The position numbers and the translations under genes are program-made. Under the pieces are notes generated by a model. The model was not told the origin of the DNA and did not search any database. It was given only the letters and a program-made list of their open reading frames with translations. Below are positions 4,703 to 27,118 of a stretch of DNA of 47,348 nucleotides, piece after piece. The DNA lies in the IMG/VR virus record IMGVR_UViG_3300037796_000062, positions 1 to 47,348 of that record, one strand, 5' to 3'. Each line of letters opens with the position of its first letter. The first letter of the stretch is position 1. Source of the stretch: a virus.

Positions 4703-6115
4703 TCACCACCCTGATATTCCCGGTATGTCATCGGTATAGTTGATGACATAGCCGACTGGCGGGTGCGCTGTGAGATGATACGCGCCTATTGCCAAACTCA
4801 TCACGCAGTCTTGCACCAGGTTGCGATCATCCCATTGGTACCCCATCAGTTCGCGACGCTCCTGTTCTGTCCATTCGGCCTTCAGTGTGCCCTGTTCGAG
4901 CAACAATTGCAACGCCTGAATAGCCTGCACCTTGCTCTTGCTACTCGTGACAAACGGATCAGCAGGCACGGCAAGATTTTCAATTAGCGGGTCGCCGATG
5001 CCGTTGCTTTCAATCACGAGTTTTCCAGGATAGTGGTTCCATGCCTGCTCTATGTGCTGCTGTATGACCGGATACGGCAGACGCTCAAGGCGCTCGTGAT
5101 AGACGCGCTGCACCGGCTGTACTGACACGTCGAACACGTTGATCACGGTAGCATCCTGCCTACGCCCAACGTCTACACTCAACAGGTACAGACCGCCAGA
5201 GTAAAATGGCTGCTCGCCCACGGCGCCGTGCGTGGCATTAGCGATGCCCTCTTCGCTGAACACCGCCAGCCCGGACATCACGAAATCGCATTCAAACTCC
5301 GCCGCCCATTGCTGAGAGGTGTACTTCGGACGCTCCTCAAGGTACCAAGCGGCCTGCTCGTGCGGTACGCCCGCCGCCTGCTCTTCTGGCGTGTAATAGC
5401 GTGGGCAATGATGCCAGGGATGCACGAAGTAATGAAAGCCGCTCTGCTGCCCATACAACTCGCTAAACAGGTTGCCGCGCCCGTTCGGCGTGCTACCGAC
5501 CACCAGGCGCCCGCCCTGGGCTAGTGCCGGGCTGATGGATTGGTATATCTCCTCGTCATACGCAGCATAGGCAAACTCGTCAAGGTAGACGATGTTGGCT
5601 GCGTAGCCACGGCCCGCTGATGGGTTGGCAGGTAGTGAGAGGATGCGCGAACCATTCGCGAACTCCATCTCGCTCTGGTTCCGCTTGCGGAGTGCAGGCG
5701 GGTTCCTCAAGTTGTGATAGGCCACAAAGCAATAGCGCAGCATGTTGACGGCGAGCGCCTGATTACGGCTCACCAGGAGTACCGTGCTTTGCGCGTCGTG
5801 AATAGCGGTGTACAACGCCTCGATTGCGAACACCTGAGAGAAACCGATCTGGCGCGCCTTGAGCACGAACCGGCGCGGCTCCTCGTAGGCATCGAGGTAT
5901 GCCGCCTGATAGTCGTATGGCTCGAAGGGTATCAAACCACGCACCGGGTGCACGAGCATCGCCTCATTGCGCGCCCATTCCAGAGGCGTAGGCACACTCT
6001 CACCCGTCGCCTGTAGTGCGGCGCTGTTCGTTAGCGGCAATAATGGCGCCGATGGTTTCGCCCGGTAGGAGCTTGTGGAGGAGTTCAATTGATTTGGTAA
6101 CGCTATCAAAGTCAT
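4703..6115 (-). CDS. terL: Terminase large subunit
   Basis: This is the ATP-driven packaging motor and nuclease. In the 470-residue frame the Walker A-like motif is ARQIGFS (87-93), Walker B is IVYLDE (175-180) and the coupling motif is VGSTPNG (206-212). The C-terminal RNase H-type nuclease has candidate acidic residues in LLSVDVG (D315), LVIESNG (E369) and LVQDCV (D436). The first 40 residues overlap the small-terminase gene and are low-complexity. A GTG at codon 41 (VPTPLEWARNEAM), just past the small-subunit stop, is a credible alternative start. Confidence 0.92.
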   Translation of the reverse strand: MTLIALPNQLNSSTSSYRAKPSAPLLPLTNSAALQATGESVPTPLEWARNEAMLVHPVRGLIPFEPYDYQAAYLDAYEEPRRFVLKARQIGFSQVFAIEALYTAIHDAQSTVLLVSRNQALAVNMLRYCFVAYHNLRNPPALRKRNQSEMEFANGSRILSLPANPSAGRGYAANIVYLDEFAYAAYDEEIYQSISPALAQGGRLVVGSTPNGRGNLFSELYGQQSGFHYFVHPWHHCPRYYTPEEQAAGVPHEQAAWYLEERPKYTSQQWAAEFECDFVMSGLAVFSEEGIANATHGAVGEQPFYSGGLYLLSVDVGRRQDATVINVFDVSVQPVQRVYHERLERLPYPVIQQHIEQAWNHYPGKLVIESNGIGDPLIENLAVPADPFVTSSKSKVQAIQALQLLLEQGTLKAEWTEQERRELMGYQWDDRNLVQDCVMSLAIGAYHLTAHPPVGYVINYTDDIPGISGW

Positions 6116-9288: not shown

Positions 9289-10593
9289 TTACTCCTCTCC
9301 AAACATATCCAACTGTCGCGGCCTATTCTGCTCCTCGGTAATGCGCTGCTGCGCAATAGCGAAATAGGTTGCGTCCATTTCAATACCAACGAACTGGCGC
9401 CCCGCTCGTAGCGCCGCGACGCCGGTTGTGCCAGAGCCCATGAAGCAATCCAGGACGATCTGATCAGGCGCCGTGATCAGTTTGACAAGCCATTCCATCA
9501 GTGCCAGGCTCTTCTGCGTCGGGTGCGTACTCCCGGCCCGCTCGGACGGTGGCGGCTTGGCCTGGTAGCGGAAGCAGGGAAAGAAACGGGCGGCGGTGCC
9601 TGTGTCGCCTGCATACTGTGTCTCAGTTGTTTTTACACCTGTCGATATGAAACTTGTTGTGGTTTTACGGTATGGCATACCTATGTTATGTCCGCCGTTT
9701 TTTGTCACCCCGCTCTGCTCACCCAACTCCCGCACCGGGCAACCCTCCACGCACGCGGCCTCGGTGCAGTCGGGCGCGTGGCTGAACACGACGTGCGGCG
9801 GGTAGCGGCCTGCTGAATTATGGCGAACACTATCAGGGTGATGGTTGGCTACAGGGGTTTTTGTAGTGTCATGTACACCAGAAAAAGGTATGTGATACCC
9901 AGTGGCAGTTTTCCTAAATCCAGGATCGCCCCTCGAAATTGGCACCCGACACGCATCGATGTTCAGGCCGCCTGTGCCGTGCTGTAGGACGTTGCGCGCC
10001 ACATTGCGCTCGCTGATCGGCTTGCGTACCAATATCCACTCTTCAGCGGCGGGCTTGAGTGCGGTTTTGTAGCCGTCCCATTGCTGCGCCTCTGGCGTGG
10101 CGGGAGTGGTAATATCACGCTCGTAGGCTTTTGTCTTCTCGCCAGCGTACATGCCCGACCCGTACTCGCGCCCATGCCCGTTGCGAATGTCGTGGGCGAT
10201 GCGCTCGGTGCCAACCACCTCCCGCTCTGCGCCCAATTCCTGATCAATCGCCTTGTTGATGTCGAGTGCTTTCGGGAAGCCAGAGCCGAATAAGTGGTAC
10301 ACTTTTTCGCGTATCTCGAACCCGGCATCCTCCAGAGCACACGCCGTCCAGTGCGAGGTACGCGGCAAGGCCCATACCAGACCGTGCGCGCCCGGTTTCA
10401 GGACGCGGTACGCCTCGCTCATAATCTCAGTAAGCCAGGCAACCCATTGCGCCCGCCCACCGCGATCATCGTCCCATGCCATATTCATGAATGCGATGCC
10501 CGACGGCGGATCGCACACGAGCGCGTGTATACTGTCGCTCTCTAGTGCCCTCAGCACGTCAAGTGCATCGCCGTGGTACAGTTGTGTGATCAT
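9289..10593 (-). CDS. DNA N6-adenine/N4-cytosine methyltransferase (beta-class order)
   Basis: The catalytic motif IV, DPPSGIAFM, lies near the N-terminus. The SAM-binding motif I block, DCFMGSGTTGVAALRAGRQF followed by VGIEMD, lies near the C-terminus, which is the beta-class arrangement. The long middle region (about 130-330) is probably the target-recognition domain. DPPS differs from the more usual DPPY, so whether the target is adenine or cytosine N4 cannot be told. The ATG overlaps the stop of the C5 methyltransferase. No restriction enzyme accompanies it, which suits an anti-restriction role. Confidence 0.88.
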   Translation of the reverse strand: MITQLYHGDALDVLRALESDSIHALVCDPPSGIAFMNMAWDDDRGGRAQWVAWLTEIMSEAYRVLKPGAHGLVWALPRTSHWTACALEDAGFEIREKVYHLFGSGFPKALDINKAIDQELGAEREVVGTERIAHDIRNGHGREYGSGMYAGEKTKAYERDITTPATPEAQQWDGYKTALKPAAEEWILVRKPISERNVARNVLQHGTGGLNIDACRVPISRGDPGFRKTATGYHIPFSGVHDTTKTPVANHHPDSVRHNSAGRYPPHVVFSHAPDCTEAACVEGCPVRELGEQSGVTKNGGHNIGMPYRKTTTSFISTGVKTTETQYAGDTGTAARFFPCFRYQAKPPPSERAGSTHPTQKSLALMEWLVKLITAPDQIVLDCFMGSGTTGVAALRAGRQFVGIEMDATYFAIAQQRITEEQNRPRQLDMFGEE

Positions 10594-11639
10594 TGCGCCT
10601 CCATCACCCGCTGCATCAGGAGCGGCGGCACGGCATTGCCGATAATCCTGCACGCCAGTGATGCGCGCTCCGGCAGTTCGTACCAGTCAGGGGACGATTG
10701 AAAACGCGCCAGGGCACGCGGCGTCATTTTCACGACGCGGCCTTGCGCCAACACCGCCCGCGTCGCGTGTCGAGCACCCGTCTGGGCCTTGACCGCAAAC
10801 GCAGGCGCGCAATCAGCGACGCTCGTGCAGGTTGTGCCATTGGTGTTGGCTTGCCCGTCCAGAAGCAGGGCGCGTGATCTCCCACCGAACTGTGTTGTCA
10901 CGGTTGGCATCGGGAACCGTGACAACACATAATCAGGCGCATCCTTACCATCACGTTTCTGGTTGCCGAATACCACACTCTCACGCACATCCGCAGGCAG
11001 GCGTGCCAGTTGCCACGGCGCGAACTCGCTCTCTGGCAGTGTGTCTATGATGTCCTGTATCGCCTCATACCATCCCACCCACGGCAGCAGCCCGCCGAAC
11101 ATATCGTTGCGCCCGCCCCGGCAATGCGTGGCAGCAGGCCGCACCACGCGCCCATTACGACATGCCACCAGGATGAGACGGCGGCGCGTCTGCGGTACGC
11201 CGTAGTCGGCGGCGTTCAGATGCCACCATTGCACGTCATAGCGTAGTGTACGCAATGCCTGCACAATCAGCGCAAATGACACACTTTCGCGATATCCATA
11301 GACCTGCTCCAGACTAAACACAGGCGGCTGCTGTTCCTGGATTGCTCGCACCGTGCCACGTGCCATCTCGATATCGAGTTCGGTTTCAGCAGCGTCGTCT
11401 TTCGCAACGCTGAAATTCGGACATGGCGGGCTTGCGTGTAGCCAGACCACACGCGGCAGCGCGCTATAATCCACATCCTGCACAGGCGCTATGAGCATCC
11501 GTGTATGAGGCAGGTTACGCGTGTGCCACGCAGCCATAGCTGCGTCATACTCGACCGCCCACAGCGGCGCGTAGTCTGCCTGAAGCGCGCCGATATCAGC
11601 GCCGCCGCCGCCGCTAAAGAGCGAGGCAAATGTACCCAT
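10590..11639 (-). CDS. DNA C5-cytosine methyltransferase
   Basis: All main motifs are visible: motif I SLFSGGGGADIGA, motif IV ASPPCPNFS with the catalytic Cys at about residue 73, motif VI as SLEQV (E111), motif VIII QTRRRLILVA and motif X RIIGNAVPPLLMQRV. The enzyme methylates cytosine C5 in a short target. Its start overlaps the upstream stop (TGATG). It is paired with an amino-methyltransferase immediately downstream, so the phage probably guards its DNA against more than one host system. Confidence 0.92.
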   Translation of the reverse strand: MGTFASLFSGGGGADIGALQADYAPLWAVEYDAAMAAWHTRNLPHTRMLIAPVQDVDYSALPRVVWLHASPPCPNFSVAKDDAAETELDIEMARGTVRAIQEQQPPVFSLEQVYGYRESVSFALIVQALRTLRYDVQWWHLNAADYGVPQTRRRLILVACRNGRVVRPAATHCRGGRNDMFGGLLPWVGWYEAIQDIIDTLPESEFAPWQLARLPADVRESVVFGNQKRDGKDAPDYVLSRFPMPTVTTQFGGRSRALLLDGQANTNGTTCTSVADCAPAFAVKAQTGARHATRAVLAQGRVVKMTPRALARFQSSPDWYELPERASLACRIIGNAVPPLLMQRVMEAQ

Positions 11640-11974
11640 CACTCACTCCCCTCCACTTGCTGCCTTGCATCCCATTTTTTATGTCGAGATGGGTCTTGGA
11701 GCAGGTGCCAGCGCATAGGCATGTATGCGCTGGTAGGGTACACAGGGATAATGTAAACCTCCGGCAGATACACATAGATACACGGCACAAATTTTCCATA
11801 GAGCGGCGTCTTTTCTATGCTGCATTGCGGCTCACTCCAAACAATCGCTGTTGGCAAATAGCCATGATCGAGCACATAGCAACGCAGGAAATATTCAAGA
11901 TCTTCCGGGATCGGCTCTCCATTTGGGAACGCAAATCCTGGAAAACTCATCTCAGCAGGCCATTCAAAATTCAT
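11639..11974 (-). CDS. Hypothetical protein (111 aa)
   Basis: Starting at MNFEWPAEMSFPGFAFPNGE, the product is rich in Pro, Tyr and Trp and looks like a small beta-rich globular protein (VPCIYVYLPEVYIIPVYP). The ATG overlaps the upstream stop (ATGA) and follows GGAGGGG. No family recognised. It lies between the initiator-linked small gene and the methyltransferases. Confidence 0.6.
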   Translation of the reverse strand: MNFEWPAEMSFPGFAFPNGEPIPEDLEYFLRCYVLDHGYLPTAIVWSEPQCSIEKTPLYGKFVPCIYVYLPEVYIIPVYPTSAYMPMRWHLLQDPSRHKKWDARQQVEGSE

Positions 11975-12204
11975 CCCATCCCCTCCACTCGCTCGCGCAG
12001 CCGCTCCACGGCTTGCGGCAGACTGTACCACGGCGGCGCGTCTGTGTCGTCCAGTGTCCAGTATGACGCCGTGGGTACATCGATGCCGAGCGTAGTTGAC
12101 AGGCGCTCCAATTCGGCGTACAAGGCGCGGCGCTGTTCGGCCCGCGCTGCCAGTTCAGGCTGGTCAGGGTAGTGGCGTTGCGTGTCGAGCTTGCGGCGTG
12201 CCAT
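11971..12204 (-). CDS. Hypothetical helical protein downstream of the initiator (77 aa)
   Basis: The ATG shares a base with the PrimPol-helicase stop (TAATG), so the two are translationally coupled. The product is helical and charged (PELAARAEQRRALYAELERL), with a short Trp/Tyr-rich centre and a second helix (LPQAVERLRERVEG). It could be a small coiled-coil partner, but no function can be assigned from sequence. Confidence 0.6.
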   Translation of the reverse strand: MARRKLDTQRHYPDQPELAARAEQRRALYAELERLSTTLGIDVPTASYWTLDDTDAPPWYSLPQAVERLRERVEGMG

Positions 12205-14534
12205 TAGTAGCCCTCCAGTTTAGAGAAGCCTGCTTCAGGCGGACGCTGGCGAGATGCAACAACGGCAGCATTCGCCTCATCAGCACTTCGGAATGCACGC
12301 ATCACAATCGGCACATCATTCACATCGGCAAGCACAAAACCTTGCTCGGTTTCAATGATGTAGATATCATCACCGGAAGTCCTTGCAAGTGTTCGATATT
12401 CATCCTCGCTAAGTTCCGGGCTTTGGTTCCGCCCCCCCCTCTTATAGAGGGGGGGGGCGGAACTTAACTTTGCCGTTGGTTCCGAACCTCCCGGAACCAT
12501 ACCGGAACCATGTGGAACCATGTTGTTATTTCCCTTTGCAGACACATCTGCAAATGAAACTTTGTCGGAACTTTGATCACGCTCTGGAACCACCCAATTG
12601 AGATGGTTCCGCATGGTTCCGGGGGCATTTTCGGGCGCCGCTTCATTCTTATTCTGCTGCTCTACCTCCCGCTTTCCCGCATCAGTAAGCCGAATTGACA
12701 AAGCCCGCGAACCCTCTTTTTTATCCCGAAACACGAGGGATTGTTCCATAAGTTTCGAGACCATCGAAGAGACGCGACCTTTGTTCGCATCGGGCAGTCC
12801 GAGTTCATTTGTAAGGTCTTTATTACTGATACCATCGGCATAAAACGGCTTTGCGAGAATATCGAGGATCTCACGTTCGCGAGCGGTGAGCGGAGATTGA
12901 TAATCGTGCGCAATTTTGTGCGTAGGAATAGGAACCGCGCTGGTCACGGGTTCGCCGTGACGGTTCAGGAGTTCGGAACCATCCGAACCACGCAACCCGA
13001 CGGTGATCAGTTTGAAATAGCGCGGTTCGAAATCGGCACCCATGCGATTTTTGCGGCTCGACATGGTAACGATTTCATTCGCATCGATGCTAATCTCAAT
13101 CATCTGATCGCAATCGTTATAGAGCACACTGGCACCACGCGGCCCCCGGCTCGCGTCCTTACCGGGATGATGCACCAGGACGACGGTACAGCCCAGTTCT
13201 TCACGTATACGCATCGCATTGCGCGTTGCGTGTTGCATATCCTCGTTGCTATCCGTGTCACCATTCATACATGGCGAGAGAGTGTCAAAGACAATCACAG
13301 ACAAGTTTCGCGGCCTGAATAACTCAATAAAAACCGCAATATCGTGCTCACTCATCAAATTGATTGCTGCGCTCCAGAAGCCAAGATGACCTTCCAGGGC
13401 GGTCGGTGCAATGCGATGATGCTGGCACCAGGCGTGCAAACGTGCCTGATAAATATAAACTGCTTCTGCCGCCACATACAGCGCATTGACCCCCTGGGCT
13501 GCGAGGCTTGCCATCATGTCGAGCATCAGGAATGATTTCCCGACACCGCTAGCACCGTACACCGTCACGACGGCGCGATCTTTCAGGTAACCCTGAAGTA
13601 AATCGGTAGGCGGCTCCATAGCGAGCACCTGACTGACTGACATATAGCATCCGCTCAGGTTGCTCATGGTTCCGTTGGTTTCGTTGGTTCCGGAATGTTC
13701 CACATGGTTCCGCCCTGGTTCCCTGGTTCCATTGTGCCGGTTGGCCTGGGGCCTACCAGTATCCTCAGGCGTGCCACCATTGCGAGCGCTCGCGATGGTG
13801 CGCGTAACCTCTCGGACAGTCAGCCCGGTGCGAACTGCAACCATTTCAACCGTTTCGAATGCATCCTCTGGCAACCGGCCCGCCTCGACAAATTCATTCA
13901 CGCGCCGTGCGACGCGGAAGAGCGTCGCATTTCGTGTACCCTCGCGTGCCTGCGATAATTCGACGATCAACGCATCATAGGCGCGCCGTGCATAGGCGTC
14001 GTTTTCGGGTACGCTGCTGGTGTTGGGTGTTTGCTTTCGCTCCTGCTCCGGCTTGCGCGTCACCCATTCCGGCAGCGGTGCCAGGTCGCTGTCATTTTCC
14101 CAGGCATACACCGCGCCGGTGGGATGCACAGACGGCGCAGCGACGATGTAGCCGCCGTCGCCTCGCACGTCCAGCCCGGCTACGTCATGCAGGTCTGTGT
14201 CGTTGCGGATGTGGGTTCCGGGGTGTTTGTAGAGCCTGTGGCGTCCCCTAGCGGTGGCCTGGCAGCGAGTTGAGGTGTCGCCTTGCAGCAACACATACTC
14301 TTCAGCGTCGGGGTTGTCAGTGTCAACAACGACAAAGCCGGATACCGCTCCAGTCGCAATGCCGATGTTATAGTGTGGGTTTTTCGACCACCAGGCGCGG
14401 ATCTGTTCGGGGTCGGTTGTAGCATCCAGGCAACCGTGCTCTGTAACAGGCTTCTTGCCGCGTGCCCTCAGCGGGAAAACGTGCCAGCCCCGGCTGGCGT
14501 AGTCGAGTGCTGTATTTAAAAATGTCCTACCCAT
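12204..14534 (-). CDS. PrimPol-helicase replication initiator
   Basis: From the ATG behind GAGGAGAC the protein has 776 residues. Residues 1-160 form a bifunctional primase/polymerase domain with VVVDTDN (D71, D73), ARGRH (about 95-99) and LDVRGDGGYIVAAPSVHPTG. Residues 300-530 are a RepA/RecA-like ATPase with Walker A GASGVGKS (327-334), Walker B LSVIVFD (411-417) and VVLVHHPGKD. Residues 545-625 look like a winged helix. A separate small domain ends the protein. The two linkers (about 265-292 and 635-703) are encoded by DNA packed with GGTTCC repeats. The likely role is origin melting, unwinding and priming. Confidence 0.88.
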   Translation of the reverse strand: MGRTFLNTALDYASRGWHVFPLRARGKKPVTEHGCLDATTDPEQIRAWWSKNPHYNIGIATGAVSGFVVVDTDNPDAEEYVLLQGDTSTRCQATARGRHRLYKHPGTHIRNDTDLHDVAGLDVRGDGGYIVAAPSVHPTGAVYAWENDSDLAPLPEWVTRKPEQERKQTPNTSSVPENDAYARRAYDALIVELSQAREGTRNATLFRVARRVNEFVEAGRLPEDAFETVEMVAVRTGLTVREVTRTIASARNGGTPEDTGRPQANRHNGTREPGRNHVEHSGTNETNGTMSNLSGCYMSVSQVLAMEPPTDLLQGYLKDRAVVTVYGASGVGKSFLMLDMMASLAAQGVNALYVAAEAVYIYQARLHAWCQHHRIAPTALEGHLGFWSAAINLMSEHDIAVFIELFRPRNLSVIVFDTLSPCMNGDTDSNEDMQHATRNAMRIREELGCTVVLVHHPGKDASRGPRGASVLYNDCDQMIEISIDANEIVTMSSRKNRMGADFEPRYFKLITVGLRGSDGSELLNRHGEPVTSAVPIPTHKIAHDYQSPLTAREREILDILAKPFYADGISNKDLTNELGLPDANKGRVSSMVSKLMEQSLVFRDKKEGSRALSIRLTDAGKREVEQQNKNEAAPENAPGTMRNHLNWVVPERDQSSDKVSFADVSAKGNNNMVPHGSGMVPGGSEPTAKLSSAPPLYKRGGRNQSPELSEDEYRTLARTSGDDIYIIETEQGFVLADVNDVPIVMRAFRSADEANAAVVASRQRPPEAGFSKLEGY
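12425..12620. repeat. GGTTCC/GGAACC iteron-like cluster A (candidate origin)
   Basis: Eight exact copies of GGTTCC or its complement start at 12425, 12478, 12493, 12504, 12514, 12586, 12605 and 12615. Several are 10-11 bp apart, one helical turn. Near-copies (CGGAACT, CCGAACC) lie between them. The cluster falls in the region encoding the linker after the winged helix of the initiator. Two more copies occur at 12931 and 12975. Confidence 0.7.
12426..12463. repeat. C8/G9 inverted repeat inside the initiator gene
   Basis: Arms GTTCCG plus eight C, and nine G plus CGGAAC, enclose a short TCTTATAGA centre. This gives a 14-bp nearly perfect stem able to form a cruciform or a strong RNA hairpin. 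The outer six bases are the GGTTCC repeat in opposite orientations. It is read through in frame as SSAPPLYKRGGRN. Confidence 0.75.
13668..13730. repeat. Phased GGTTCC iteron cluster B
   Basis: Exact copies start at 13668, 13686, 13706, 13717 and 13725. One-base variants at 13677 (GGTTTC) and 13696 (TGTTCC) fill the gaps. Together they make seven units in the same orientation every 8-11 bp. The cluster encodes the linker between the primase and ATPase domains. Confidence 0.7.
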
Positions 14535-14560
14535 CGGTGTCTCCTCATCAACTCTCCACA

Positions 14561-14600
14561 ACAAAAACACCGCGCCCGGCAGTTACCCACCAGGCGCGGT
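14561..14600 (-). terminator. Rho-independent terminator after ssb
   Basis: On the minus strand the arms ACCGCGCC and GGCGCGGT enclose a 16-base loop, followed by GTTTTTGTTG. It separates the SSB stop from the initiator start, so it probably reduces transcription of the initiator and later genes relative to erf and ssb. Confidence 0.75.
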
Positions 14601-14608
14601 CGTCTCGG

Positions 14609-15013
14609 CTAAAACGGCATGTCGCCTTCACCCTCGTGTACAAGTTTCGGGCGATTGCGGCGGGCAAGCTGTGGTTCGTCCTCGGTTGTGTCGCTCCGGC
14701 CACTGAGTAACAGAAAATCACGCACCGTCAATTCTGTGCTATAGCGCGTGGTGCCCTCTTTATCCTCATACGAGCGCGTTTTGAGTGTACCTACACATTG
14801 CACGCGGGTGCCCTTTGCAGCATACTCATTGACGATCTCTGCGAGGCGTTCCCATGCCTGGCACTTAAACCACTCGGTATGCTCATAGTCGCCACTCCCT
14901 GTAGTGACGGCCACACTGAACGTCGTGACTGTCTTGCCGCCCTGTGTAAAGCGCATCTCAGGATCGCGCCCAAGGTTGCCAACGATAATAGTTTGCTGGA
15001 ATCCTTTACCCAT
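14609..15013 (-). CDS. ssb: Single-stranded DNA-binding protein
   Basis: This 134-residue OB-fold SSB begins with QQTIIVGNLGRDPEMRFTQG, then TFSVAVTTG, TEWFKCQAWERLAEIV, KGTRVQCVGTLKTRSYED and TELTVRDFLLL. The acidic tail ends in GDMPF, the usual docking tip for partner proteins. It coats single strands during replication and recombination. It lies one base after erf, consistent with co-expression, and a terminator follows it. Confidence 0.95.
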   Translation of the reverse strand: MGKGFQQTIIVGNLGRDPEMRFTQGGKTVTTFSVAVTTGSGDYEHTEWFKCQAWERLAEIVNEYAAKGTRVQCVGTLKTRSYEDKEGTTRYSTELTVRDFLLLSGRSDTTEDEPQLARRNRPKLVHEGEGDMPF

Positions 15014-15014
15014 A

Positions 15015-15653
15015 CTATGCCTCCTCTGCTTCTGCCGTTACATCACCATACACCAGTTTGCGCGTTTCCTCAATCGCCGCCTCGACTTCCTCGGCGGTCA
15101 TGGCGTTGACCTGCCCGCTCGTCATTTCAGGCAATGCTACCCCACGGCGCCGACCCTCATCGCGGGCGCGCTTCAGTTTTTGCACTAACTGCGCGCCCGC
15201 CTTCGGTGTGCCGTTGCGTTTGTCTGTGTCCTTAGATGGCTGGTGATTGGCGCCGCGTGGCGGTTGTGCGGCGTTGGCATCGTCGTCATCGTCGGCAACA
15301 ATACCGAGCAGAGCCGCGAGCGAGTAGCGGCGCAAATATGTCAGGGCCGAACCATAACCCTGCGGCTCGTTTTTACCGAGCGGGATCTGGGCGGTGCTGC
15401 TGATAAACTCCCCGCTGACATGTAGCAGGATTGTTTCCAGGCCACAGTAGCCCGGCTCGGCTGTCGTGGGCAGTTGCAGCACGCTAAGTTCGTTCTCTGC
15501 GAGCGCATCGCGACAGGCGTCCCACACGGCGCCCAAATCGGCGTAGCGGCTGCGAAAATGCGGATTAAGGCTGTCCTTCGCGGCAGGCTTCACGGCAGCC
15601 TGCGCCTTAGTCAGGGCCGGGGCTATGTTTGTGATCGTCTCACTACGTTGCAT
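15015..15653 (-). CDS. erf: ERF-family single-strand annealing recombinase
   Basis: The 212-residue product has the ERF core: ALTKAQAAVKPAAKDSLNPH, FRSRYADLGAVWDACRDAL, GYCGLETILLHVSGEFI and GYGSALTYLRRYSLAALLGI, followed by an Asp-rich stretch and a Lys/Gln linker. Family members form rings on single strands and promote annealing, useful for circularising or repairing phage DNA. A basic helical C-terminal domain follows. The ATG is preceded by GGGAGG, placed just after a perfect hairpin. Confidence 0.92.
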   Translation of the reverse strand: MQRSETITNIAPALTKAQAAVKPAAKDSLNPHFRSRYADLGAVWDACRDALAENELSVLQLPTTAEPGYCGLETILLHVSGEFISSTAQIPLGKNEPQGYGSALTYLRRYSLAALLGIVADDDDDANAAQPPRGANHQPSKDTDKRNGTPKAGAQLVQKLKRARDEGRRRGVALPEMTSGQVNAMTAEEVEAAIEETRKLVYGDVTAEAEEA

Positions 15654-15665
15654 CTCTCAACCTCC

Positions 15666-15686
15666 CGCCGGGCATCGCGCCCGGCG
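15666..15686 (-). promoter_or_regulatory. Perfect GC hairpin beside the erf ribosome-binding site
   Basis: Arms CGCCGGGC and GCCCGGCG with a five-base loop end immediately before GGGAGG of erf. No T run follows on the minus strand, so it is not a typical terminator. It could stabilise the messenger or modulate erf translation. Confidence 0.5.
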
Positions 15687-15700
15687 CTCTTGTGCGATTA

Positions 15701-15784
15701 TTACGGCTTCGGTTGCGGCCTGGGTGGTTGTGGCGCAGGCAGCGGCATGGGCGGGTAGTGAACGGTGTCATCGATGTACATCAT
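15701..15784 (-). CDS. Proline-rich micro-protein, IDDT-YPP type (27 aa)
   Basis: A 27-codon frame overlaps the zinc-ribbon stop (ATGA) and follows AGGAGG at ideal spacing. It begins MMYIDDTVHYPPMPLP and ends in a Pro/Gln/Lys-rich tail. The IDDT-x-x-YPP-x-PL core also occurs in the micro-protein at 17545 on the other strand, which argues that both are real genes. Function unknown. Confidence 0.55.
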   Translation of the reverse strand: MMYIDDTVHYPPMPLPAPQPPRPQPKP

Positions 15785-16002
15785 AGTGGTACCTCCTCTT
15801 CGTCTACGCCCTGCGGCGCTTCCGGTTCAGGTTCCCAGATAATCATGTGGCACTCTGGGCAGAACACCACATCATCATAATCGACCTCCGGTACAATCAT
15901 CGCGCCGCAATGTGGGCACTCTTCTTCTTCGGCATAGTCGCCTTCACAGACGTCATACATACCGAGCCACTGGCATACCTGTTCGTGGTCAAACTTACTC
16001 AT
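15781..16002 (-). CDS. Zinc-ribbon protein (73 aa)
   Basis: Starting at MSKFDHEQVCQWLGMYDVC behind GGAGGCAGG, the product carries ECPHCGAMIVPE and VVFCPECHMIIWE. These are two CxxC knuckles that should bind one zinc. The C-terminus is acidic (EPEPEAPQGVDEEEVPL). Such small ribbons in early phage operons often bind nucleic acid or host proteins, but no specific role can be read here. Confidence 0.65.
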   Translation of the reverse strand: MSKFDHEQVCQWLGMYDVCEGDYAEEEECPHCGAMIVPEVDYDDVVFCPECHMIIWEPEPEAPQGVDEEEVPL

Positions 16003-16208
16003 ACCTGCCTCCGATCTTGCCACCCCCGTGACAACCTCCAGTTTTTGATCGTTCGCCATTCACCTGCTTTCCGTTCTTGGATAGCACAGTAATACACCGC
16101 ATCGGACAAAACGCCCTTGATCTCGCCTGATTGCATCCAGCGCCTACGATGAATGCGGGTGTGTCCCTCATAGCGCGGTGGTAATTTTTCATACGTGTCG
16201 GTTGTCAC
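15999..16208 (-). CDS. Small basic hypothetical protein (69 aa, GTG start)
   Basis: The GTG (VTTDTYEKLPPRYEGHTR) overlaps the upstream stop. The product is basic and rich in Trp and Arg (KNWRLSRGWQDRRQV), with a Cys/Tyr segment (AVYYCAIQERK). Its stop overlaps the zinc-ribbon start. Function unknown. Confidence 0.5.
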   Translation of the reverse strand: MTTDTYEKLPPRYEGHTRIHRRRWMQSGEIKGVLSDAVYYCAIQERKAGEWRTIKNWRLSRGWQDRRQV

Positions 16209-18684: not shown

Positions 18685-18996
18685 ATGACACTGGAGAACA
18701 CACAGACGGGAGATTGGCTTCACATCAGCAATGGCCGCACATCCACTATTTCGCGTGTCGCGCGCGTCACAAAGACACAGGTGCACGCGGCATTACGCAA
18801 GTTTTGGCGCGATGGGAGCGAGATCGGTGCCGATATATGGAGCCGCTACCACGCCAGACCTGCCACCGAGAAGGATATCATGGAGCACAGGCGGCGGATG
18901 CTGGCAGGCGATTTGCGCCGAGTGGAGTATCTGGATTTGTCGCTCGATCAATTGCAGCGTATCTGGAATATTACAAAGGAGGGGGCTAATGAGTGA
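18685..18996 (+). CDS. Early-region tandem paralogue A (103 aa)
   Basis: The product runs TLENTQTGDWLHISNGRTST, ISRVARVTKTQVHAALRKFW, GSEIGADIWSRYHARPATEKDI, and a helical tail (VEYLDLSLDQLQRIWNITKEG). The next gene encodes a close copy throughout. The region ISRVARVTKTQVHAA suits a small DNA-contacting fold, but this is inference. Function unknown. Confidence 0.65.
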   Translation: MTLENTQTGDWLHISNGRTSTISRVARVTKTQVHAALRKFWRDGSEIGADIWSRYHARPATEKDIMEHRRRMLAGDLRRVEYLDLSLDQLQRIWNITKEGANE

Positions 18997-19363
18997 ACCG
19001 CGCAACCCACTGGAGAACACACAGACGGGCGACCTGCTTTACATCAGCAATGGCCGCACATTCACCATTTCGCGTGCCACGCACGTCACAAAGACACAAG
19101 TACATGCAGCCTCGCGTAAATTCAGTCGTGATGGGAGCGAGATCGGTGCCGATATATGGAGCCGCCACTATGCCCGTCCTGCTTCCGAGGAGGATATAAG
19201 TATATGGAGCCGCCACTATGCCCGTCCTGCTTCCGAGGAGGATATAAGAGAAGACAGGCGGCGCGCGCTGGCACGTAATTTATACCAAGTAGAATATATC
19301 GATTTGTCGCTCGATCAACTCGAACGTATCTGGGGTATTGTAGAGGAGGGCACCAATGAATAA
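18989..19363 (+). CDS. Early-region tandem paralogue B with internal duplication (124 aa)
   Basis: Starting at MSEPRNPLENTQTGDLLYIS, it aligns end to end with the preceding gene (ISNGRT, ISRATHVTKTQVHAASRKF, GSEIGADIWSRHYARPASEEDI, VEYIDLSLDQLERIWGIVEEG). It is longer by 16 residues because IWSRHYARPASEED plus two residues is repeated by an exact 48-bp tandem duplication. The frame is kept, so the product may still fold. Confidence 0.65.
   Translation: MSEPRNPLENTQTGDLLYISNGRTFTISRATHVTKTQVHAASRKFSRDGSEIGADIWSRHYARPASEEDISIWSRHYARPASEEDIREDRRRALARNLYQVEYIDLSLDQLERIWGIVEEGTNE
19153..19248 (+). repeat. Exact 2 x 48-bp tandem duplication
   Basis: Positions 19153-19200 and 19201-19248 are identical. 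The unit is 16 codons, so the gene stays in frame. With no base differing between copies, the event is recent or the repeat is unstable. Confidence 0.95.
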
Positions 19364-24240: not shown

Positions 24241-24839
24241 CACCACTCGCAGATCATCAAATTCGGGCACTCGCTCACGGCGGCATGATCACGCCGTATA
24301 GTGAGGCGGTTGGCGCTCCGGCTGTTTCGTACGGACTCACGTCCTACGGCTACGATATGCGGATTGACGCCGTATTTCGCTATCCACAGCGCGGTGTGGC
24401 GCTCGACCCGAAACGACCCGACCTGGCACAATGGTTTCCTATTTATGCGTATGATTATGATGTCCCATACGCCATAGATCCGTATGTCAAGACAACAGAC
24501 GGGCAGCCGATCTTTCTGGTCATGCCGCCATACTCGTTTGTGCTAGGGCGCTCTGTAGAGCGGTTCCGCATCCCGCGCAACGTGACGTGCACGGTGCTTG
24601 GAAAGAGCACGTATGCTCGCAATGGTACCATCGTCAACGTGACACCGCTCGAGCCCGAATGGGAGGGCCATGTCACGATTGAGATTAGCAACACCGCGCC
24701 GCTGGCGTCAATTATCCACATTGGGGAGGGTATTGCACAGGTGCAGTTCTGGCAAGCCGATGCGACGTGCGAGGTGTCGTATGCAGATAAAAAGGGCAAG
24801 TACCAGGGGCAAACCGACGTAACAGAAGCGAGGATGTAA
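24237..24839 (+). CDS. dcd: dCTP deaminase
   Basis: The 200-residue trimeric enzyme converts dCTP to dUTP for thymidylate synthesis. Visible motifs are SYGLTSYGYDMRID near the N-terminus, VLGKSTYARNGTIVNVTP (the Ser and Arg of the active site), then LEPEWEGHVTIEISN with the catalytic Glu, and GIAQVQFWQ followed by SYADKKGKYQGQ. The start is set by the ATG behind GGGAGG that overlaps the previous stop. Its stop overlaps the clamp gene. No dUTPase or thymidylate synthase is seen in the window. Confidence 0.93.
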   Translation: MTPLADHQIRALAHGGMITPYSEAVGAPAVSYGLTSYGYDMRIDAVFRYPQRGVALDPKRPDLAQWFPIYAYDYDVPYAIDPYVKTTDGQPIFLVMPPYSFVLGRSVERFRIPRNVTCTVLGKSTYARNGTIVNVTPLEPEWEGHVTIEISNTAPLASIIHIGEGIAQVQFWQADATCEVSYADKKGKYQGQTDVTEARM

Positions 24840-25948
24840 TGACGAACGAACTGCAAGCCATCGTACCACAACCCGAACTAAGGCACGCTATAGCCACTGT
24901 GCGCCCTGCTGTGGCAGGTAAATCATCTATCCCTAGTCTCACTCACATTCTTCTGACGGTAGGCGCTGACGGGCTTACACTGGCTGCCACAAACCTGGAA
25001 ATGAGCATCATCACCCGCGTCCCGGCGAATGTCGAGACGCACGGCAGTATCAGCGTTCCCGCTCGCCTGCTGGCGGATGTGGTGGGCGGGTTGCCGAATG
25101 AGCCAGTAACACTCCAGATGCATAGCGCGTCTCTGCGTCTGGAATGCGGGCGTTTCGTAACCAACATCGTCGGGTTAGACGCTGATGAGTTTCCGCGCAT
25201 TCCTACCACAACCGGGGAGGGTATCCCATTCCAGGCGCCCGCATTGCGTGACGCGATAGAGTGCACCGCATTCGCCGCCGCCACAGACGAGAGCCGCCCG
25301 GTGCTGACAGGCGTCTATGTTGGCATTGGCCCGGAAGGCGTCAAACTCGCGGCAGCAGACGGGTACCGCCTGGCTAAATACGTATTGGACACAGAGAGTA
25401 TGCAGCCCCGTCCAGATCTGATCATCCCTGCCCGCGCATTGCGCGAGTTGACTGGCATCATCGGGGATACAGAAGGTGCCATCAGGATGGCAGCTAGCGA
25501 CAATCAGGTTGTTTTTGAGACAGGCGCAACCACACTTGTCTCGCGTCTGATTGACGGCCAGTTCCCAGACTTTGAGCGCATCATCCCCGAAGAGCACGCC
25601 ACGGGTTGCCTTGTGGACACACGCGAACTGGCGAAAGCCGTCAAGCTCGCGTCTCACTTTGCGCTCGCCAGTCAGGGCATCTTGAAGGTTCAGGTGCAGG
25701 AGAAAGAAGGATTAACACTCAGCGCCAATGCCGCCGACGTCGGCGATAACCAGGGCACCATCGGCGCGACAATCATCGGCAGAGATAACGAGATCGCCGT
25801 CAATGTGCGGTTTCTCGCTGATGTGTTGGAGGCGATAGAGACGCAGCAGGTAGCGTTGGAGTTGATAGGGCCGCACGCCCCGCTCGTGCTGCGTCCTGTC
25901 GGGGATGATCGCTACACGCACGTCATTATGCCGATGTCCATGCGGTAG
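24839..25948 (+). CDS. dnaN: DNA polymerase III sliding clamp (beta subunit)
   Basis: The 369-residue length matches cellular beta clamps. Three-domain features are visible: SLTHILLTVGADGLTLAATN in domain 1, ECTAFAAATDESRPVLTGVY and AAADGYRLAKY in domain 2, and LSANAADVGDNQGTIGATI and the terminal VIMPMSMR in domain 3. The clamp ring tethers a C-family polymerase to DNA. No phage polymerase is present, so it probably binds host polymerase III. A terminator follows. Confidence 0.95.
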   Translation: MTNELQAIVPQPELRHAIATVRPAVAGKSSIPSLTHILLTVGADGLTLAATNLEMSIITRVPANVETHGSISVPARLLADVVGGLPNEPVTLQMHSASLRLECGRFVTNIVGLDADEFPRIPTTTGEGIPFQAPALRDAIECTAFAAATDESRPVLTGVYVGIGPEGVKLAAADGYRLAKYVLDTESMQPRPDLIIPARALRELTGIIGDTEGAIRMAASDNQVVFETGATTLVSRLIDGQFPDFERIIPEEHATGCLVDTRELAKAVKLASHFALASQGILKVQVQEKEGLTLSANAADVGDNQGTIGATIIGRDNEIAVNVRFLADVLEAIETQQVALELIGPHAPLVLRPVGDDRYTHVIMPMSMR

Positions 25949-26094: not shown

Positions 26095-26125
26095 TGTTGC
26101 ACGTTTGTTGCACATATGCTATAGT
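26095..26125 (+). promoter_or_regulatory. Promoter with direct repeats before the actin-like gene (candidate parC)
   Basis: TTGCAC (26097), a 17-bp spacer and TATAGT (26120-26125), preceded by TGC, form an extended -10 promoter. TGTTGCAC occurs twice exactly 11 bp apart (26095, 26106), over and beside the -35 box. This is how ParR-type proteins bind repeats in their own promoter, so this may be both operator and centromere. Confidence 0.6.
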
Positions 26126-26161
26126 AGCAGCAGCGAATACGAACTGACACGAGGAGAGAGT

Positions 26162-27118
26162 ATGCACGCGTATGGGTATAATGGCGGCTATGGGTACACC
26201 AAACTGATCAGCCTGAGCAATGGAGAGGAGGTCTTCAACGTCTCGTTTCCCTCGATGATCGCTCCCGCGTCGCGTGCGGTTGCAGGCGCCCTGGAACGGG
26301 CTACAACCGTCACGGTGGGCGGGTCTGAGTATTGGGTGGGGATAGACGCCGAAATGGCTGCACACCCGCTCACAGACCTGTCTGAAGCGCGCTTGACAAG
26401 TCCCGTGCTTATCCCCGCGATGGTCAAGCACGCGACGGCGGGAATAAGCGATGCGGGCACCCTGGTGACGGGCCTACCAGCGCATCAGGCAGAGAATGAG
26501 GAGTACGGGCGGGCGCTGGCAGCACGATTGCGCGAGGCGAGTGCTCTGTGGGAGGGCGATATCACGGTCATCGCCGAGCCGGTTGGGTTGCTGTATAGCC
26601 TACTCCTGGATAATCACGGCAAAATGACGGGCGATACAGCACTCAAGGGCAGCGTCGCCGTTGCCGATATCGGGCACCTCACGCTGGACGTGTCCGAGGT
26701 GCAGAAAATGCGCCCCGTGAGCACGGGTATGGACGCCCGCGAACTTGGCACAGCGCAGCCGCTCAAGGCTATCCGCTCGTTTCTATCGAGTGCGTTAGGC
26801 CGTGAATTGACACTCTACCAGACTGATCAGGCAATACGGACGGGCGGCGTCACGATTGCAGGCCAGTTTGTGAAACTGCCGTCTGGATGGGATACGCCGC
26901 TCTATAGGCACGCCGAAACCATCGTATCCTATTTAACTGAACGATGGGGCAATGGCAAGCGGTACGACGCGATTGTTATCGGCGGCGGCGGTGCAGAACT
27001 GCCGCAACTCACGACAGCAATCCAGGCGAGATACGGGCACGCCGTCATCGTGCCAGAGCCGCAAATGGCAGTCGCTCGCGGGTATGCGCGGCTCGCGGCC
27101 CGGATTGCGGCGCAATGA
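26162..27118 (+). CDS. ParM/Alp-like actin homologue
   Basis: The 318-residue product has the actin-fold ATPase motifs: phosphate 1 YNGGYGYTK at the N-terminus, phosphate 2 VAVADIGHLTLDV in the middle, and the adenosine motif DAIVIGGGGAELPQL near the C-terminus. Such proteins polymerise to segregate plasmids or to position phage DNA. The usual Asp of phosphate 1 is replaced by Asn (N7), which may slow ATP hydrolysis. The start downstream of the -10 box was chosen; a longer frame would begin inside the promoter. The gene overlaps its partner gene by four bases. Confidence 0.82.
   Translation: MHAYGYNGGYGYTKLISLSNGEEVFNVSFPSMIAPASRAVAGALERATTVTVGGSEYWVGIDAEMAAHPLTDLSEARLTSPVLIPAMVKHATAGISDAGTLVTGLPAHQAENEEYGRALAARLREASALWEGDITVIAEPVGLLYSLLLDNHGKMTGDTALKGSVAVADIGHLTLDVSEVQKMRPVSTGMDARELGTAQPLKAIRSFLSSALGRELTLYQTDQAIRTGGVTIAGQFVKLPSGWDTPLYRHAETIVSYLTERWGNGKRYDAIVIGGGGAELPQLTTAIQARYGHAVIVPEPQMAVARGYARLAARIAAQ

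Follow-up and report, generated by a model that had tools for sequence, protein, structure and literature searches.

A candidate replication origin of bidirectional iterons inside the Prim-Pol/RepA-like initiator gene of a phage from an IMG/VR record

The viral record IMGVR_UViG_3300037796_000062 from IMG/VR, analysed over its full length of 47,348 bases and called the window here, carries a gene for a replication initiator with an archaeo-eukaryotic-type primase/polymerase (Prim-Pol) domain and a RepA-like ATPase domain. Near the 3′ end of the coding sequence, a group of short repeats in both orientations, array A, was found together with an AT-rich spacer and a hairpin. Judged from sequence comparison, the three elements very probably constitute the replication origin of the phage, placed within the very gene that encodes its initiator. 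Placement and orientation of the copies, constraint at the DNA level, the AT-rich spacer, the hairpin and the co-variation of iteron and DNA-binding domain in relatives were observed directly. As an origin, the element would be of a known kind, an iteron origin with a layout like that of phage-inducible chromosomal islands (PICIs), here embedded in coding sequence. The gene and the elements of the proposed origin were located as follows.

12204..14570, minus strand: initiator gene, 788 amino acids (aa), with Prim-Pol, RepA-like ATPase, winged-helix-like domain (wHTH) and a small C-terminal tail
12412..12621, unstranded: array A, proposed origin, CGGAACCA iterons in both orientations with 8 exact GGAACC cores
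12526..12565, unstranded: AT-rich spacer, candidate melting site, 65% AT, between the iteron sets
12426..12463, unstranded: hairpin, GTTCCGCCCCCCCC ... GGGGGGGGCGGAAC with a TAT tip, 38 nt, at one end of array A
12502..12622, unstranded: inverted iteron blocks at long range, with 20-nt arms of 95% complementarity separated by 81 nt

Exact copies of GGTTCC/GGAACC numbered 16 in the initiator gene, 15 of them within 12425-13730, which bears out the enrichment reported in a preliminary description of this DNA. The whole window held 35 copies compared with 17.9 ± 4.4 in dinucleotide shuffles. A genome-wide count, suggested in the same description as a check, revealed no similar density elsewhere, with a rate of 0.42 per kb outside the initiator gene. 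At the 1.3 kb scale, GGAACC was the most clustered 6-mer of the window, along with its overlapping neighbour GAACCA. A stricter null model kept the protein fixed and shuffled synonymous codons 5000 times. Under this model 3.3 ± 1.6 copies were expected in the gene (maximum 10 in 5000 shuffles) versus the 16 observed. The cluster at 12425-12620 comprised 8 copies and that at 13650-13740 comprised 5, versus shuffle maxima of 7 and 4, respectively. Copies occurred in every codon frame and on both strands and are thus not dictated by the peptide. A better description of the repeat unit was CGGAACCA, with 17 sites in the gene at up to one mismatch versus the 1.8 that the remainder of the window would predict. 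Within blocks, multiple short direct repeats followed each other at about one helical turn, in steps of 8-11 bp. Both clusters were encoded in low-confidence linkers of the AlphaFold2 model (aa 270-324 and 643-733), in line with the preliminary description.

Array A was positioned inside the gene between the wHTH and the C-terminal tail, ahead of the last ~70 codons. The copies followed the order + + - - -, a 66-bp gap, and - + +. Steps measured 10, 11, 15 and 19 bp, and there were also gaps of 53 and 72 bp. The array was arranged as two iteron sets on either side of the 66-bp gap, which holds its most AT-rich stretch. Just 0.9% of the 40-mers of the gene were equally AT-rich, and the spacer contained an inverted repeat, TTTGCAGA-CACA-TCTGCAAA, at 12535. 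The arms of the hairpin comprised 14 nt with 100% complementarity; the outer stem was formed by an iteron pair and the hairpin also read CCCCCCCCTCT-TAT-AGAGGGGGGGG. The 20-nt arms of the inverted iteron blocks could form a further stem-loop closing an 81-nt loop, and single-stranded DNA of 12400-12640 folded much better than its shuffles did, with a z-score of -7.7. An assignment of the hairpin as an intrinsic terminator was rejected on the grounds that no T-run followed it in the window or in most relatives. In the Rhizobium phage 16-3 a TTTT does follow the hairpin, and a terminator role is possible there.

The initiator protein was analysed with an AlphaFold2 model built on a 37-sequence alignment, which replaced a poor single-sequence model. 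Its parts were assigned as follows, all on the minus strand.

14064..14510: Prim-Pol domain, aa 21-169, Pfam PF09250, 5e-42
12996..13616: ATPase domain of the RepA-like hexameric-helicase type, about aa 319-525
12651..12884: winged-helix-like domain, about aa 563-640, AlphaFold2 model at moderate confidence
12204..12407: C-terminal tail, about aa 722-788, translated past array A

The annotated start of the gene is a GTG at 14570, with a plausible alternative ATG at 14534 that is preceded by GAGGAG. In the alignment, D83 and D85 of the Prim-Pol domain were nearly invariant, and the protein matched the PHROGs DNA polymerase/primase family with 2.6e-36. The ATPase domain was recognised as Pfam AAA_25 (1.8e-27, aa 319-473), with an intact Walker A motif, GASGVGKS, and a RecA-like architecture of the RepA fold. 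Among the Foldseek matches listed, the best one by target-normalised TM-score was RSF1010 RepA (1nlf/1olo, 0.64); a sequence search against solved structures returned no match for the protein. A superfamily 3 (SF3) helicase domain was not found in the initiator, its place being taken by the AAA_25/RSF1010 RepA fold. For the wHTH, the model placed helices at 563-577, 586-589, 594-609 and 630-640 and strands at 613-616 and 624-628; the Pfam winged-helix matches were weak, with a best E-value of 0.011. A Prim-Pol domain and a C-terminal winged helix, the latter with weak support, are thus combined in one protein. The C-terminal tail was modelled as helix-strand-strand-helix at low to moderate confidence. 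Genes for SSB and Erf adjoin the initiator gene.

Phage relatives of the window were collected by a terminase scan. Five of them (L125, L126, L128, L134 and L135) mostly had 84-94% DNA identity over the aligned flanking stretches. Homology to all five ended at 12217/12218, where the initiator gene has its 3′ end. For L135, it ended at 12217 (88% identity on that side) and resumed at 16205 (82% identity on that side). This point marks a clean module exchange, with ~4 kb replaced in the relatives.

12218..16205, unstranded: replication/recombination module (initiator, SSB, Erf), replaced wholesale in relatives of ~90% identity

The replacement module encoded a RecT/Bet-like annealing protein, a Toprim/RepA-like initiator and, in L126, a UvrD-like helicase. 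This second initiator comprised Toprim-like, AAA_25 and helix-turn-helix (HTH) domains, and its gene carried an in-gene array of its own at the same place, behind the HTH, with GGCAGAGT forward and then ACTCTGCC copies, 9-20 bp apart and in both orientations. Relatives with other initiators accordingly bore other motifs at the same place. BLASTP did not support homology between the C-terminal tail of the window protein and that of L126 past the final residues.

A putative natural switch of specificity was seen within the second initiator. Among further relatives of this initiator, L252 was 84-100% identical over the ATPase region (25-column windows) versus about 48% over the HTH region, where the other relatives retained about 94% identity. 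In its array (5776-5980), GTCACTCT units, some of them GTTACTCT, replaced GGCAGAGT in both orientations, with the layout and orientation pattern kept. The part of the gene behind the HTH was also more divergent. Since HTH, array and tail have all diverged in L252, a single recombination event that brought them in together would be a simple explanation.

A survey of Prim-Pol/RepA loci was made with an alignment of the window protein and the RepA of the Manatee Spring phage as query, retrieving 80 viral loci by protein alone. Arrays were located with a motif-agnostic detector written for this case, which scores the most repeated 6-mer on both strands within 350 bp. The denominator was 70 complete genes with enough downstream sequence, on viral contigs that may be fragments or misassembled. 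In 56 of the 70, the best array of the whole locus began between -300 and +100 of the stop codon, where 4.2 were expected under uniform placement, a statistic inflated by shared descent as are the others of the survey. All 56 arrays at the gene 3′ end were bidirectional, and the array usually lay just behind the gene. Grouping at 90% protein identity gave 31 clusters, of which 21 had an array; at 70% there were 15 clusters, 9 of them with one. Most arrays were built from (T/C)GGGACA(A); other motifs were CGTAAC, GGGAAC, GGAACA, CGATAC, GGGGCA, AATACC, GAACAA and ACGTAC. Further arrays were present in the Rhizobium phages 16-3 and RHph_X2_25 (CGTGACA), the Manatee Spring phage (TGGGACA), Arthrobacter phage Potatoes (GGTTACA) and phage ST231. 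Those of 16-3 (initiator p101; L141, 5122-5449) and Potatoes (initiator gene 45; L232, 6592-6885) lie outside the gene. A contig from a gammaproteobacterial metagenome-assembled genome, L263, held an in-gene array with TGGACA three times per orientation, in three frames.

The iteron motif varied together with the C-terminal part of the initiator. For pairs with an ATPase identity of 0.8-0.9, C-terminal identity was 0.77 with the same iteron versus 0.48 with a different one, and the same direction was seen in the other identity bands that held both kinds of pairs; the pairs are not independent. Hairpins with a C-rich/TWA/G-rich tip numbered 36 in 19.5 kb of array DNA versus 11 in the remaining 529 kb of the loci. 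Many of the 36 are shared by descent, and their outer stems match the local iteron. A like hairpin, CCACCCCC-TTTA-GGGGGTGG, stood 44 bp behind the RepA helicase gene of the Polaromonas plasmid pPNAP03 (L237, 4078-4100), with neither iterons nor a T-run after it. Of the perfect DnaA boxes in the 59 array loci, 20 fell within array regions and 2 elsewhere. In 19 of these 59 survey loci, a DnaA box was found at a fixed distance of ~40 bp behind the array. Boxes behind arrays were recorded in L140 (beyond the 19 of the survey), L158, L162-L167, L172, L183, L198, L207-L211 and L216-L223.

GGTTCC was not the sole hexamer to form such arrays. Among the matches listed, bidirectional arrays in viral contigs were also formed by other hexamers, with at least 3 of 120 loci for GTCGTC and at least 10 of 120 for GTGTCC, compared with at least 19 of 119 for GGTTCC. 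Bidirectional GGTTCC arrays in L061 (2627-2853, nearly mirror-symmetric), L024 (3140-3386), L027 (1631-1878), L077 (4058-4373), L113, L053, L028, L023 and L054 were located in or beside genes without a recognised primase or helicase family, possibly unrecognised initiators. GGTTCC arrays in L068, L078, L070 and L117 stood at or just behind VapE-type (PICI-like) primase-helicase genes. Common ancestry of the motif with that of L045, which has the same hexamer, was rejected because the C-terminal domains do not match; the shared hexamer may reflect convergence or selection by the scan.

In the proposed mechanism, the wHTH of the Prim-Pol/RepA-like protein would bind the CGGAACCA iterons in both orientations. 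The bound protein would then multimerise and melt the AT-rich spacer, and the RepA-like ATPase, going by its fold family, would load itself and unwind the DNA. Finally, the Prim-Pol domain might prime at or near the exposed hairpin and single strands, which is the weakest step. The linker can host the array because the encoded peptide is unstructured. As the DNA-binding domain and its sites lie side by side, they could be exchanged together in one recombination event, a likely advantage. A wider model would describe a one-gene replicon, in which one polypeptide combines the functions of RepA, RepB′ and RepC, the origin lies in a disordered linker and the wHTH with its sites forms one exchangeable specificity cassette. 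It would also hold that Prim-Pol/RepA-type phages share a signature of bidirectional iterons at the initiator 3′ end and an iteron-pair hairpin. This model is plausible, with the chances for and against it about evenly balanced.

The second cluster and the copies between the clusters were distinct from array A in layout.

13667..13731, unstranded: array B, seven units in a single orientation, five exact and two with one mismatch, 8-11 bp apart
12974..12990, unstranded: isolated sites between the arrays, an exact CGGAACCA at 12974 and a one-mismatch copy at 12983

Array B was located in the linker between the Prim-Pol and ATPase domains, which is disordered in the model. The preliminary description had counted seven same-orientation units in 13668-13730. 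Five of these were exact, and two, GGTTTC at 13677 and TGTTCC at 13696, had one mismatch each. Its spacing of 8-11 bp for both clusters applied to array B, with the mismatched units included, and not to array A with its mixed orientation and uneven phasing. A second in-gene array was not found in other members, as 60 motif copies occurred unclustered in 59 gene bodies versus 38 expected. An origin role of array B is therefore unsupported by comparison, since the other genes examined had no counterpart. Of the in-gene candidate origin first proposed over both clusters, comparative evidence thus upholds the part behind the winged helix and not the part before the ATPase. Its role may be that of a further binding region, like the crr of phage P4, or that of a control site.

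A control function has to be weighed for the arrays as a whole. The array could be an autoregulatory operator or a copy-control site acting by handcuffing or titration, which the wHTH reads to repress or to count. The co-variation of wHTH and iteron points to reading and not to initiation, and array B, in a single orientation, far from the tail and without counterpart elsewhere, could well be such a site. However, the arrays are found at the gene 3′ end and not at a promoter, and the AT-rich spacer, the recurring hairpin and the DnaA box at a fixed distance in many relatives fit an origin better. As an account of array A, the control site is unlikely. Peptide-level repeats are a far weaker candidate: a low-complexity Gly-Thr/Met-Val-Pro linker could have grown by slippage and left DNA sites without a role. 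The arrays do lie in linkers disordered in the model, and unrelated viral-contig genes carry GGTTCC repeats in one frame. Yet the copies here occupy three frames and both orientations, relatives retain the array outside the reading frame, behind the gene, and slippage would not be expected to yield a concerted switch of sites in both orientations, which makes this explanation highly improbable. Equally poor is the prospect of a site for partition, packaging or recombination (related to parS, pac or Erf/SSB) placed in the initiator gene by chance: the phage encodes a match to the phrog_691 partition family and has Erf and SSB next door, but the motif tracks the initiator C-terminal domain across phages and the array travels with the initiator module and is not tied to the terminase or the partition genes.

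Several observations weigh against the assignment of array A as an origin. A perfect DnaA box was not found near the array of the window. The GC skew, also suggested earlier as a check, turned near 17 kb, where gene direction switches, and not at 12.5 kb; it is uninformative because it tracks gene direction. A search for close relatives of the window initiator gave no match in viral contigs or in 15 related contigs, and none was confirmed in genome contigs. Shared descent links the survey loci, and at 50% identity 2 of 6 clusters had an array. Within the wider family, no similar 3′-end array was present in BFK20, BcepGomr, Sour, Wanda, H40/1, KLB5, CRP-810, Shagrat or BIP-1. The assignment of the wHTH in the window comes from a model of moderate confidence and weak profile matches.

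Since the initiator has its own primase and RepA-like helicase domains, it should act more like P4 alpha, PICI Pri-Rep, pRN1 ORF904 and RSF1010 RepABC than like lambda O. The satellite phage P4 relies on repeats in two regions, ori and crr, and arrays A and B resemble these. P4 alpha, a multifunctional primase-helicase whose C-terminal winged helix binds origin repeats (PMC4234260), has a domain content similar to that of the window protein. However, the primase of P4 is of the Toprim type, and the P4 repeat regions are not inside the gene. In PICIs, the origin lies immediately 3′ of the initiator gene, has an iteron set on either side of AT-rich DNA and can sustain replication of a plasmid (PMC6092414). 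The PICI/SaPI pri-rep-ori replicon (PMC6092414) is like the window in its short iterons, in two sets with AT-rich DNA between them, and in an initiator with primase-like and helicase parts; its origin adjoins the initiator 3′ end, and so, in part, does the one proposed here. In contrast, the array of the window is inside the reading frame, its helicase is RepA/RecA-like and its primase a Prim-Pol. The window also carries a terminase large subunit gene and large phage structural-type open reading frames, and with terminase and other virion genes it is not a satellite by gene content.

The pRN1 replicon, with Prim-Pol, helicase and wHTH, needs a stem-loop just 3′ of its gene and has no iterons according to its authors (PMC4234260). 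ORF904 of this crenarchaeal plasmid, like the window protein, carries Prim-Pol, helicase and a C-terminal winged helix on a single chain, and both systems have a stem-loop. It differs in that pRN1 has an SF3 helicase, no iterons and the element 3′ of the gene, whereas the window has a RepA-like ATPase, iterons and the element in the gene. In RSF1010, RepC acts on iterons, RepA unwinds and RepB′ primes at ssi hairpins (PMC4234260). The window matches this functional set with a helicase, a primase of the Prim-Pol type and a predicted iteron binder, and with iterons and hairpins at the proposed origin; among the matches listed, RSF1010 RepA provides the nearest solved ATPase fold. RSF1010 distributes these functions over three separate proteins, whereas the window has one polypeptide with three domains, the wHTH being the predicted iteron binder, and its own proposed origin. 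The lambda origin is located within gene O (PMC6022878). The parallel to lambda drawn in the preliminary description applies to position, in that iterons of an established or, here, a proposed origin lie within the initiator gene itself, and not to the mode of action, as lambda O is without a Prim-Pol or RepA domain and the window initiator has both. Lambda O, having no primase or helicase, works with P and host DnaB. For site-specific priming by an enzyme of this type there is a precedent in NrS-1 Prim-Pol, which begins synthesis at defined template motifs (PMC8718748). A literature search of incomplete coverage yielded no paper on iterons in Prim-Pol phages.

Other features of the window were recorded. 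The protein encoded at 26105-27118 matched the phage partition family phrog_691 (6e-34), so the phage may persist as an extrachromosomal prophage. A phage-encoded DNA polymerase III beta subunit (sliding clamp) with all three Pfam domains was present at 24839-25948. Two neighbouring frames at 18685-19363 resembled a tandem duplication (shared SNGRT...ISR...KTQVHAA...DGSEIGADIWSR), with an additional internal duplication of SIWSRHYARPASEEDI. Two adjacent DNA methyltransferase-like genes, assigned by sequence motifs only, were located at 9289-11642.

Most phages known only from metagenomes have unmapped origins. The simple rule of looking at the 3′ end of a Prim-Pol/RepA initiator for a bidirectional short-repeat array and a hairpin provided a candidate origin in 56 of 70 loci, with no motif known beforehand. 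The proposed origin would extend the PICI-like layout to full-size phages and to coding DNA. If the shared signature of Prim-Pol/RepA origins holds true, it would run against the published view of this layout as unique to PICIs. The paired change of winged helix and iteron in close relatives represents a natural set for studying the evolution of origin specificity, and it would allow the compatibility groups of phages and phage-plasmids to be predicted from their sequences.

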